64,000 bases of DNA from Nonomuraea typhae (GTDB lineage: Bacteria; Actinomycetota; Actinomycetes; Streptosporangiales; Streptosporangiaceae): positions 124,001 to 188,000 of the forward strand of contig NZ_VRLV01000021.1 in NCBI RefSeq assembly GCF_009760925.1. The letters run 5' to 3'. The notes beneath the pieces are model-generated. The model did no database searches, had not been told where the DNA came from, and saw only the letters and a program-made list of their open reading frames with translations. The position numbers and the translations under genes were made by a program. Shown here piece after piece: positions 2-4,448 of this stretch. Every line of letters starts with the position of its first letter. Position 1 is the first letter of the stretch.

Positions 2-982
2 AGCGTGCTCGCCGAGGGGGCCTACGGCAAGCAGACCGTGCGCGGCGTGCTGGCCGACGGCGATCACGTCGGCGACCGGTCGCTGGCCGGGGAGACCGGC
101 ACGTGGGAGAACACGGTGCAGGCGGTCACCGCGTGCACGATCCTCGCCCTGCCCAGGCCGGCCTTCGACGAGGTGGCGGAACAGGCGGAGGGGCTGCGCG
201 AGCACGTGGACGCGTGGGCGGCCGATCCCGACCAGGCGCTCAACGCCCACGGCGAGGCCGAGATCGCGCTGGCCTCGGGCCACATCGGCGAGCCGACGCT
301 GCCCGGCACGTTCGTGGACTACGACCTGGCGCCGCGCGAGTACGAGCTGAGCGTCGCGCAGACGATCCTGCGGGTGCACACGCGGGTGGCCGATCTGTAC
401 AACGAGCCGATGAACCAGACGCAGCAGCAGTTGCGGCTGACGGTGGAGGCGCTGCGCGAGCGCCAGGAGCACGAGCTGGTCAACAACCGCGAGTTCGGCC
501 TGCTGCACAACGCCGACCTCAAGCAGCGCATCCACACCCTGACCGGCCCGCCCACCCCGGACGACCTGGATGAGCTGCTGGCCCTGGTCTGGAAGAACCC
601 GGCGGTCTTCCTCGCCCACCCGCGGGCCATCGCCGCCTTCGCCCGCCAGTGCACCGAGCGCGGCGTCTATCCCACGGCCGTCGAGGTCAACGGGCAGAAG
701 GCGCCGTCGTGGCGTGGGGTGCCGATCCTGCCGTGCAACAAGATCCCGGTCAGTGAGTCCGGACTCAGCTCGATCATGGTGATGCGGGTGGGCGAGGCGG
801 CCCAGGGGGTCATCGGCCTGACGCGCACCGGCCTGCCCGACGAGTACGAGCCCGGTCTGTCGGTGCGCTTCATGGGCATCAACGACAAGGCGATCATTTC
901 CTACCTTGTCACGACGTACTACTCCGCCTCGGTGCTCGTGCCGGACGCTCTCGGCATCCTGGAGAGCGTTGAGGTGGGCTGA
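2..982 (+). CDS. Family 2B encapsulin shell protein, copy A (5' end outside window)
   Basis: HK97-fold shell protein of the cNMP-binding-domain (2B) encapsulin family, to which Streptomyces EshA belongs; such proteins self-assemble into protein nanocompartments around a cargo enzyme. The reading frame is open to the window edge, and comparison with the complete paralogue at 3120-4448 suggests about 120 N-terminal residues are missing. The visible part has the tail of the cyclic-nucleotide-binding-like insert ([14 protein letters not shown]) followed by the shell core ([74 protein letters not shown]). Its stop shares one base (TGATG) with the start of geosmin synthase, so the two are translationally coupled. 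The core is very similar to copy B, while the insert differs in length and sequence. Confidence 0.9.
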
Positions 983-3123
983 TGCCGTATGAGATGCCGG
1001 ACTTCTACCTCCCCTATCCCCCCAGGCTGAACCCGCACCTGGACGCCGCCCGCGCGCACAGCCGCGCGTGGGCGGCGCGGATGGGGTTCTTCGACAACCC
1101 CGACGTGTGGACGCCGGCCGACCTGGAGGCGCACGACTACGGCCTCATGTGCGCCTACGCCCACCCCGACTGTTCGTCGCGGGAGCTCGACCTCGTCACC
1201 GACTGGTACGTCTGGGTGTTCTACTTCGACGACCACTTCCTGCACGCCTTCAAACGCACCCAGGACCACAGGGGCGCCCAGGCATACCTCGACCGCCTCG
1301 ACCTGTCCATGGCCGACGATCCGCCGGAGCCGGACAACCCCGTCGAACTGGCTCTCCAGGACCTGTGGGCCAGAACCGTCCCGGCCATGGGCGCCGACTG
1401 GCGGGCCCGGTTCGTCGCGGTCACCCGCGACCTCACCCAGGAGTCGATGTGGGAGTTGTTCCACATCCGCTCCGGCCAGGTCGCCAACCCCATCGAGTAC
1501 ATCGAGGAACGCAGGAAGGTCGGCGGCGCCGGGTGGTCGGCCTGCCTGGTCGAGCACGCCGCCGACGCGGAACTGCCGGCCAGGATCGCGCGCACCCGGC
1601 CGATCCGGGTGCTCACCGAGACGTTCTGCGACGCCGTACACCTGCGCAACGACCTGTTCTCCTACCACCGCGAGGTGATCGCCGAAGGCGAGCTGTCGAA
1701 CTCGGTGCTGGTGTGCGAGCGGTTCTTCCACTGCGACACCCAGCGCGGCGCCGACATCACCAACGACATGATCACCTCCCGCCTGCACCAGTTCGAGCAC
1801 ACGACGCTCACCGAACTGCCGCCGCTGTTCGCCGAGCACGCGATCACCCCGCCCGAGCAGGAACGGGTGCTGCGCTACGTCAAGGGCCTGCAGGACTGGC
1901 AGGCCGGCGGCCACGCCTGGCACCTGTCCTCCAGCCGCTACACCAGGTCACGGCGCGAGGACGGGCCGGTGCACGTCTCCCCGGCCCACGTGGCGAGCGC
2001 CGTGCGCAGCTTCTCCCACCGCCCCTACACCGAGATCGCGGTACGGCTGCCGCCGCTCGCCCTGCCGTACACCGTCCGCGACAACCCGCACCTGGAACGC
2101 GCGCGCGCCCACAACGTGCGCTGGTGTCACGCGATGGGGTTCGGGGCCGGGCTGCCCGGCCTGCCGGCCGCGGCGATCTGGAGCGAGCGGCAGATGCACG
2201 GCTTCGACTTCGCGCTGTGCGCCTCCGGCGCGGCCCCGGACGCCGATCCCGACGCCCTCGAGCGGGCGGCCGACTGGCTGGCCTGGGGCACCTACGCCGA
2301 CGACTACTACCCCCGGGTCTTCGGCAAGGCGCACGACCTGACCGGCGCGAAGCTGTCCAACCGGCGGCTGCGCGCGTTCATGCCGCTCGACCTGCTCCCG
2401 CTCACGGCGCCGGTGAACGCCGTGGAACGCGGACTGGCCGACCTGTGGCCGCGGACCGCCGGCCTCCTGCCTCCCGAGGAGCGCCGGAGGCTGCGCCGGG
2501 ACGTCGAGAGCATGATCGACAGCTGGGAGTGGGAACTTGCCAACCTGGTGCAGAACCGGATCCCCGATCCGGTCGACTACCTCGAGATGCGCCGGCTGAC
2601 CTTCGGCGCCGACCTCACCGTCCGGCTGTCGTGCCCTGAGCCCCTGCCGGAGGAGATCCGGCGCAGCCGCGAACTCCTGGCCCTGGCGGGGGCGGCCGCC
2701 GACTACGCGTGCCTGCTCAACGACCTGTTCTCCTGTCAGAAGGAGATCCAGTTCGAAGGCGACCTGCACAACGCCGTGCTGGTCATGCGCACCTTCTTCG
2801 ACTGCGGCGTGGACGAGGCCGTCGCCATCGTCACCGACCTGCTGAACGCCCGGCTGGCCCAGTTCGAGCAGGTCGCCGCGGACGACCTGCCGGCCATGCT
2901 CGCCGAGCGGGGCGCCGACGACGGGCTGCGCGCCGCGGTCGCCCGTCACGTGACCGGCCTCCAGGACTGGATGGCCGGCATTCTGCGCTGGCACGAACTC
3001 ACCATCCGCTATCCGGAACACGAACTCCGCCACACCCATGCCGTGCGCTGGACCCAGGGCCCCACCGGCCTCGGCACCGCGGCGGCCCGCATCCAGTCCC
3101 TGCTACCGATCGGCGCGCCATGA
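982..3123 (+). CDS. geoA: Germacradienol/geosmin synthase, bifunctional
   Basis: Two-domain class I terpene synthase, 713 aa, close to the usual ~725. In the family the N-terminal domain ionises farnesyl diphosphate to germacradienol and germacrene D, and the C-terminal domain fragments germacradienol to geosmin and acetone, both using Mg2+. N-terminal Asp-rich motif DDHFL is at residues 83-87 and the NSE triad at N223/S227/E231; C-terminal DDYYP is at 440-444 with a second NSE triad at N580/S584/E588. All metal-binding residues are present, so both halves should be active. There is no long disordered extension before [15 protein letters not shown]. It sits between two encapsulin shell genes with coupled starts (1-nt overlap upstream, ATGA downstream), which marks it as the likely cargo. 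Confidence 0.96.
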
Positions 3124-4448
3124 CCGACAACCTGCTCAGCCTGTCCACCGCCGCGGCGCGCAAGCTCGCCACCACCAGCAAATCCGTCCCGCAGATGCGG
3201 GAGATCACGCCCCGCCACCTGCTGCACGTGCTGCCGTTCGAGGAGGCCGTCGGCGGCGTGTACCGGGTGAACCGGCGCCTCACCTACACCATCGGCGACG
3301 GCCGGGTCAGCTTCACCTCGGTCGGCGCCGCCGTACAGGTGATCCCTGCGGAGCTGTGCGAGCTGCCGTCGCTGCACGACTTCGACGACGAGGAGGCGCT
3401 GGGGGAGCTCGCCGCCCGCTTCGTCCAGCACGACCTGGACGAGGGCGCGGACGTGCCCGACGGGCAGATCGTCCTGGTCGCGCACGGCAAGATCGCCAAA
3501 ACCGGGGTCAGCGGGTACGGCAGGGCCGCCGTGCTCGGCATGCTGGCCGACGGCGACCACCTGGGCGACCTGACCGGCGAGGGCGCGCAACCGGCCAGGG
3601 CGGTCACCGCCTGCACGGTGCTGGTGCTCTCCCGGGAGGACGCCGACCGGCTCCGCGAACGCTCGGAGAGCCTGCGCGCCCATCTGGAGCGCCCGCTCCG
3701 GACCGGGCCGAGCAACAAGCACGGCGAGGCCGAGATCGCGATGGCCGCCGGGCACTCCGGGGAGCCGAACCTGCCCGGCACGTTCGTGGACTACGACCGG
3801 GGGCCGCGCGAGTACGAGCTGAGCGTGGCGCAGACGGTGCTGCGCGTGCACACGCGGGTGGCCGATCTGTACAACGGGCCGATGGACCAGACGCAGCAGC
3901 AGCTCCGGCTGACCATCGAGGCGCTGCGCGAGCGGGAGGAGGACGAGCTGTTCAACAACCGCGAGTTCGGCCTGCTGCACAACGCCGACCTCAAGCAGCG
4001 CTTCCAGACGCGCAGCGGGCCGCCCACGCCCGACGACATGGACGAGCTGCTGTCGCGGCGGCGCAGCTCGCACTACTTCTTCGCCCACCCCCGGGCCATC
4101 GCCGCGCTGGGCAGGCAGTGCACGGCGCGGCGCATCGTGCCGGACGTGAGCGAGGTCAACGGGGCCAGGGTCATGCTCTGGCGCGGGGTGCCGATCCTGC
4201 CCACGGACAAGATCCCGGTCACCGAGTCCGGGCTCAGCTCGATTGTGGTCATGCGCACCGGGACGGAGAAGCAAGGGGTGATCGGGCTGACCCGCACGGG
4301 GCTGCCGGACGAGTGCGAGCCGGGGGTGTCGGTGCGCAAGCTGGGCATCGACGACAAGGCGATCACCCGGTATCTCGTCACCACGTACTACTCGGCGGCC
4401 GTGCTGGTGCCCGACGCGCTCGGCGTGCTGGAGAACGTCGAGGTGTGA
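3120..4448 (+). CDS. Family 2B encapsulin shell protein, copy B (complete)
   Basis: Complete 442-aa paralogue of the shell gene at the window start. Layout: N-terminal arm (about 1-45), a cyclic-nucleotide-binding-like insert (about 50-190, with [11 protein letters not shown] and ARAVTAC), then the HK97-type shell core (about 205-442). The start ATG overlaps the geosmin synthase stop as ATGA. The segment [16 protein letters not shown] and the C-terminal block are nearly identical to copy A; the stretch between LADGDH and GEAEIA is shorter and divergent. The Arg that contacts the cyclic phosphate in CRP-type cassettes is not evident in either copy, by eye. Having two shells with one cargo suggests a mixed, two-component compartment. 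Family assignment is firm; co-assembly is inference. Confidence 0.93.

Follow-up and report, generated by a model that had tools for sequence, protein, structure and literature searches.

Two-component family 2B encapsulin shell genes around a geosmin synthase-type cyclase gene, with adjoining isoprenoid precursor genes, in Nonomuraea typhae

In Streptomyces griseus, a 2-methylisoborneol (2-MIB) synthase is reportedly the cargo of a family 2B encapsulin, as is proposed here for a terpene cyclase of Nonomuraea typhae; the S. griseus system is said to have one shell, a monoterpenoid product and loading by an N-terminal disordered region. The N. typhae cyclase, of the germacradienol/geosmin synthase type (GS), is encoded between two different shell genes, Enc1 and Enc2. 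All three lie in the window, the whole stretch of 64,000 nucleotides analysed (G000:C14:124001-188000; genome, contig, positions). Statements below on the cited papers hold for excerpts of them. GS-like cargo with family 2B shells is a known kind, and so are two-shell operons, including those with the cyclase between the shells (PMC8346489, PMC12407261). In PMC8346489 (Andreas and Giessen 2021), GS-like cyclases are putative cargo, with a GPTGLGTSAAR consensus between the two domains and at the C-terminus as a possible targeting sequence. The window shares with these systems the family 2B shells, a GS-like two-domain cyclase, a GPTGLGT-type C-terminal motif and two shells per operon. Unlike them, its GS has no inter-domain motif, and its shells are flanked by dxs, ispG, ispH and a prenyl transferase gene, a unit kept in a second genome.

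In PMC12407261 (Dutcher 2025), Enc1 and Enc2 are told apart by a motif (TVWK versus RRRK in Streptomyces lydicus) and a luminal loop, and their co-assembly is irregular; S. lydicus Enc1 alone forms no shell, and co-assembles with Enc2. The window has the same VWK/RRR motif and, as in the TC/PT operons there, a cyclase between the shells, whereas the prenyl transferase is downstream of Enc2 in those operons and upstream of Enc1 in the window. A sequence-only reading of this DNA had cited two-shell compartments with 2-MIB synthase; in the excerpts covered, the two-shell particle solved by cryo-electron microscopy is instead that of S. lydicus, treated in the excerpt as an XK system without known cargo. 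The cyanobacterial geoA-cnb-cnb genes (PMC7251104) also combine a geosmin synthase with two genes for cyclic nucleotide monophosphate (cNMP) domains, but the order is GS-shell-shell, the shells are taken for regulators and the excerpt names no precursor genes. In the myxobacterial geosmin clusters (PMC12224551), encapsulins are likewise said to be present, in all clusters studied there; shell number and precursor genes are not stated in the excerpt.

The N. typhae locus probably encodes a geosmin-type cyclase enclosed in a mixed two-component family 2B shell, along with enzymes that would supply its precursor. Three same-strand reading frames were confirmed, namely the 3' part of Enc1, GS and Enc2. 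The Enc1 stop codon (TGA, 980-982) shares one nucleotide with the GS start codon (ATG, 982-984), and GS and Enc2 (3120-4448) join at ATGA with an overlap of 4 nt. The open reading frame (ORF) coordinates thus bear out the Enc1-GS-Enc2 arrangement with its 1-nt and 4-nt overlaps, as first read from the sequence. Full Enc1 has 462 aa and starts 407 bp upstream of the window (G000:C14:123594), which cuts the gene. The features of the three genes are as follows.

2-982, plus strand: Enc1, 3' part (residues 137-462 of 462), covering the HK97 core and what remains of the cNMP-type domain; ORF reading and profile matches.
302-571, plus strand: Enc1 copy of a 90-codon segment that in many relatives is homogenised across the two shell genes; segment comparison.
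581-595, plus strand: Enc1 diagnostic motif 1, ALVWK; motif defined in PMC12407261.
982-3123, plus strand: GS, two-domain terpene cyclase of the germacradienol/geosmin synthase type (713 aa) and likely cargo; ORF, profiles and relatives.
1228-1245, plus strand: Asp-rich metal motif of the first GS domain, DDHFLH; motif reading.
1648-1674, plus strand: NSE metal motif of the first GS domain, NDLFSYHRE; motif reading.
2299-2313, plus strand: Asp-rich metal motif of the second GS domain, DDYYP; motif reading.
2719-2745, plus strand: NSE metal motif of the second GS domain, NDLFSCQKE; motif reading.
3058-3102, plus strand: putative loading motif at the GS C-terminus, 15 residues; motif class published in PMC8346489.
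3120-4448, plus strand: Enc2 (442 aa), the second family 2B shell gene, complete; ORF reading and profile matches.
3456-3662, plus strand: weak cNMP-binding-type domain of Enc2; 22.8 bits, below the Pfam cut-off.
3774-4043, plus strand: Enc2 copy of the homogenised 90-codon segment; segment comparison.
4053-4067, plus strand: Enc2 diagnostic motif 1, SRRRS; motif reading.

The family 2B encapsulin model NF041163 gave 770 bits with full Enc1 and 667 bits with Enc2 (cut-off 400), matching Enc2 end to end, and the SrpI-like HK97 core (PF19307) gave 455 and 430 bits, respectively. The cNMP-type domain of Enc1 scored 28.6 bits, over the Pfam cut-off of 27.5 even on the part left by the window; the Enc2 match fell below this cut-off, and the E-loop insertion is present there by its length of 177 residues. 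By diagnostic motif 1 of two-component systems, Enc1 is of the VWK type and Enc2 of the RRR type. On these points the sequence-only reading was supported: two distinct family 2B shells lie in one operon with a candidate cargo of the GS type. The two shells agree in 288 of 442 aligned residues (87/167 in the cNMP region, 170/225 in the core). The “nearly identical HK97 cores” of the sequence-only reading therefore hold in part, the likeness peaking in one stretch of about 90 residues. The closest solved sequences were a VWK chain for Enc1 and an RRR chain for Enc2; as both carry the published motifs, we take them to be the S. lydicus shells. A search of the N. typhae genome found no other family 2B shell.

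Similar loci were found in relatives. A named-genome survey (80 loci listed of 540 confirmed) had 10 of the 80 with the order shell-GS-shell under a 2.2-kb rule (“sandwich” loci) and two more with a wider gap; 43 had no shell in the flank, 35 of these although 5 kb or more was covered on each side. All 79 genomes searched for these loci (the L007 genome excluded) had a family 2B match at E ≤ 1e-80, 77 of them over the cut-off. In a family survey of 200 genomes, with GS called at E ≤ 1e-60 and shells at E ≤ 1e-100, GS was present in 130 and a shell in 147: 127 had both, three GS only, 20 a shell only and 50 neither (Fisher p 5e-27, genomes treated as independent of kinship). The 128 primary GS loci fetched from the 130 genomes (the N. 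typhae locus handled apart, the place of G096 left out) included 30 sandwich loci, 10 shell-shell-GS, 10 shell-GS and four with a shell near but not adjacent, while 14 with short flanks were unassigned to a layout. A prenyl transferase match was present in 29 of the 30 sandwich loci, and an ispH match in 11. The two surveys overlap in genomes, with six sandwich loci common to both. Of 48 sandwich loci, 42 were distinct, and in all 44 of the 48 that were fully typed the upstream shell was VWK and the downstream shell RRR.

In the genus g8, five loci (L215, L216, L222, L223 and L225) had a distant GS (44–46% identical) between two shells, with ispH downstream; three of these loci have dxs and ispG there as well. 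G073 and G102, two of the genomes concerned, each encode another GS that scores better and has no shell in its flank.

The shells and GS are part of a seven-gene locus, in which ispG-dxs diverge from prenyl transferase-ispH-Enc1-GS-Enc2 across a gap of 131 bp. Neighbors in the same-strand chain overlap by 4, 4, 1 and 4 nt (the ispH start being an inferred GTG, L004:6653). The prenyl transferase had its best family match with NF041169 (family 2 encapsulin cargo polyprenyl transferase), at 254.6 bits below the cut-off of 450, followed by NF042416 (farnesyl/geranyl diphosphate synthase; 254.2 bits, cut-off 600). GS had been presented as the only cargo; this was not upheld, with a gene upstream whose best match is a family 2 cargo model, albeit under cut-off, and with ispH and dxs-ispG nearby. 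All seven genes were found in the same order in G290, of the same genus (identity 76% for GS, 91% for Enc1, 87% for Enc2, 80% for the transferase, 88% for IspH, 85% for Dxs and 93% for IspG). In G310, dxs, the transferase, shell, GS and shell were within 20 kb, and ispH and ispG were not found in the 20 kb of this locus; in G279 and G305 shell-GS-shell alone was found in 20 kb. Elsewhere the N. typhae genome has two additional copies each of ispG and ispH, along with two dxs-like genes, and the locus copies therefore look dedicated. One ispH, ispG and dxs of these cluster at G000:C23:196991-200900, away from the shells, and are perhaps part of another terpenoid cluster. About 40 nt upstream of the prenyl transferase start (L004:5530-5567) were nearly unchanged in the G290 locus (L232).

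The locus is present on two contigs, C14 and C52. Their comparison gave 100% identity over 14,095 bp around the operon and over 4,000 bp at the C14 right end, and 99.6% over 2,139 bp at the C52 left end. About 165 kb seemingly occur twice in the assembly (G000:C14:37863-202520 and G000:C52:1-164615), and the offsets imply a net length difference of 43 bp inside the shared stretch. With an estimated assembly contamination of 7%, one locus on two overlapping contigs is the simplest and probable explanation; two true loci are the alternative.

Enc1 and Enc2 were compared by segment in 38 of the 42 distinct sandwich loci (L057, L156, L211 and L232 were unread by the patterns), using third-position identity in identical codons. 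The segment of 90–92 codons, from PGTF to PTPDDLD, had an identity of 0.921 between partners and 0.779 between non-partners. The corresponding values were 0.761 and 0.693 for the remaining core, and 0.714 and 0.673 for the N-terminal part (36 loci). The partner excess was present in all three (0/2000 permutations each), where it may come from relatedness and codon use alone, and was far greatest in the 90-codon segment. An identity of 0.95 was reached by the segment in 23/38 loci, by the rest of the core in 0/38 and by the N-terminal part in 0/36. Likewise, the nearest relative was the own partner for 47/76 shells in the segment, versus 4/76 in the rest of the core. The homogenised stretch ends just before the diagnostic motif, which stays distinct between partners. 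We read this pattern of codon identities as repeated gene conversion between Enc1 and Enc2, ending just before the motif; homogenisation of the segment would be expected if Enc1 and Enc2 co-assemble. In the window pair, nucleotide identity was 0.82–0.94 in sub-windows within the segment and 0.53–0.79 outside. The open-licence literature searched gave no description of the seven-gene layout or of the homogenised segment; for encapsulin and gene conversion it gave one paper, on giant viruses to judge by the title, and the word “recombination” is absent from PMC12407261.

The second shell also varies in its cNMP-type domain. The spacer that holds this domain had 189–192 residues in 41 of 42 distinct Enc1 (one unread) and 46–198 in 37 of 42 distinct Enc2 (five unread). 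It was as short as 46–64 residues in five Enc2, one of them from Planomonospora parontospora (L007). The five genes, all beside a cNMP-bearing Enc1, are the following.

L007:12211-13212: Enc2 without cNMP-type domain.
L103:9753-10778: Enc2 without cNMP-type domain.
L106:6398-7354: Enc2 without cNMP-type domain.
L147:889-1902: Enc2 without cNMP-type domain.
L220:9947-10906: Enc2 without cNMP-type domain.

These Enc2 have 319–342 aa (starts inferred) and a full SrpI-like core, and NCBIfam still scores them above the family 2B cut-off. The profile search gave no cNMP match in any of the five, while their Enc1 partners had matches of 52–67 bits. The Enc2 core tree needs two changes for the loss and is compatible with one. 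The window Enc2, with its domain shortened (177 residues) and weakly matching, is not such a case. According to its excerpt, the two-component survey in PMC12407261 demanded PF00027 in the shells and dropped operons with sequences under 400 aa as fragments, and these pairs therefore fell outside it. No description of an Enc2 without the domain was found in the open-licence literature, in which no search was aimed at such a shell by name.

GS has both class I terpene cyclase domains, and all four metal motifs are present. The model for family 2 encapsulin cargo terpene cyclases, NF041168, matched nearly its whole length with 1036 bits, and the first domain was closest to a solved germacradienol/geosmin synthase. 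Among 8000 scored candidates, 5034 matched GS at E ≤ 1e-30. Of the best 120 listed, the first 24 were 63–89% identical, the named ones coming from Nonomuraea, Planomonospora, Planobispora, Thermopolyspora and Microbispora. In the genus, 51 of 54 genomes (N. typhae included) had a GS match at E ≤ 1e-100; identity to the window GS was 76% for one, 60–62% for four and at best 57% for the others. From these features we infer geosmin as the likely product. A different terpenoid product, such as germacradienol alone or a novel sesquiterpene, is possible but not what we expect. It would suit the position of GS in a minor clade, 53–57% identical to most GS of the genus, as well as its model score and first-domain motif. 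The 1036 bits are below the NCBI cut-off of 1200 for NF041168, a cut-off passed in just 19 of the 200 family genomes, though 130 have a match. The first-domain motif ends in H (window 1243-1245) where most GS have E: this last place was E in 163, D in five, H in three and A in two of the 173 readable among 208 distinct GS. The resulting DDHFLH replaces DDHFLE in both N. typhae and G290. Both domains, the remaining metal motifs and the nearest solved relative speak for geosmin. Among the GS read, the N. typhae locus (L004) shared this final H only with L232 and L029.

How GS would enter a shell had been left open by the sequence-only reading. The window GS keeps the GPTGLGT-type motif, a published putative targeting sequence, at its C-terminus, which narrows the question. 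The inter-domain copy, however, is missing from this GS and from the eight near relatives compared, and the motif also occurs in GS that have no linked shell. No GS-type loading motif was found in the prenyl transferase, and no other protein of the cluster carries it. We rejected the tail motif as a marker of shell linkage: of the 60 loci with shell-free flanks, 53 had its strict form, compared with 22 of 30 sandwich loci (three unread). Both motif copies are kept in L155 and L095, two loci whose genomes have GS but no shell match; L144 keeps both as well, and its stretch contains a shell fragment. Retention of the motif away from shells would fit a shell encoded elsewhere in most genomes.

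The GS tail also resembles the N-arm of the shells, which has the forms LGTAAAR, LSTAAAR and others. A GS tail profile scored from the L of LGT had its best match in the N-arm for 135 of 144 distinct shells, and the whole profile for 113 of 144. Since the shells are homologues, 135/144 is near a single observation. In a control with 126 mechanical ORFs of the window, 11 reached the 6.9 bits of Enc2 and five reached 9.5, GS included. With homologous shells and comparable scores among control ORFs, the likeness was not accepted as proof of mimicry. That cargo tail and N-arm compete for one site may be kept as a lead only.

Several of these results weigh against a GS-loaded mixed shell. No shell was in the flank of 60 of the 128 fetched loci. 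The strict tail motif is as common at shell-less loci as at sandwich loci, and in the three genomes that have GS but lack a shell match at E ≤ 1e-100 it is retained every time; the motif is thus not tied to a neighboring shell and is weaker as proof of encapsulation. The NF041168 score of GS under the cut-off and the H in its first-domain motif also count on this side. The sequence-only reading had named a synthase normally unlinked, in an arrangement found only here, as the result that would speak against it. Unlinked GS are indeed frequent, but the sandwich is common as well (30/128). These same loci and motifs would agree with GS acting outside the shell, the shells holding other cargo or serving as storage and the link being regulatory. 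We consider this unlikely, because a shell is present in 127 of 130 GS genomes, the genes at the window locus overlap tightly and GS is the only protein of the cluster with the motif. Concerning the homogenised segment, its exchange is also less general than the sandwich loci suggest: 0.95 was reached by one of 15 shell pairs in other layouts (12 more unread), making homogenisation commoner in shell-GS-shell (23/38). Moreover, the Enc1 segment of the window is closer to the Enc1 of another locus (0.911) than to its own Enc2 (0.896), and exchange in the window pair is therefore old, partial or absent.

The pairing of two candidate enzymes with two shells in one operon could also mean two separate homomeric shells, such as a shell housing GS and another housing the prenyl transferase, and separate shells are named as possible in PMC8346489. 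This is quite improbable in our view: partners share a homogenised core segment and yet differ in the diagnostic motif, a GS-type loading motif is lacking in the prenyl transferase, and in S. lydicus no shell arises from Enc1 by itself, which assembles jointly with Enc2 (PMC12407261). Finally, an older paper and PDB molecule names label such proteins as regulators, and Enc1 and Enc2 would then be Crp/Fnr-type transcription regulators of the cyclase. With full HK97 encapsulin cores, and with relatives solved as shells, we give this hardly any credence.

Under the mixed-shell interpretation, which we judge probable, Dxs, IspG and IspH, as extra copies of the methylerythritol phosphate pathway, would act with the prenyl transferase to make more farnesyl diphosphate available. 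The shells would be mixed, co-assembled from Enc1 and Enc2, and GS would be packed inside through its C-terminal tail. Substrate would enter and product would leave via shell pores partly covered by outward cNMP-type domains, a placement of pores and domains taken from the published S. lydicus shell. A wider proposal, tentative and in its entirety rather doubtful, joins these steps to the variation among relatives. Gene conversion would keep the E-loop/P-domain segment of Enc1 and Enc2 equal, so that both tile one mixed shell; the Enc1 cNMP-type domain, of invariant length, would be a gate, and Enc2 a free filler with a domain that can become smaller or disappear. The cargo tail LGTAAAR would imitate the N-arm LGTxAAR and dock at the N-arm site, and shell composition would therefore set the cargo load.

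The locus combines precursor supply, shells and enzyme in a compact set that lends itself to transfer and testing as one block. Relatives in which just one partner keeps the cNMP-type domain, and the segment held equal by evolution, are natural experiments. Together, these loci bear on why there are two shell proteins, on the role of the cNMP-type domain and on how terpene cyclases are loaded.

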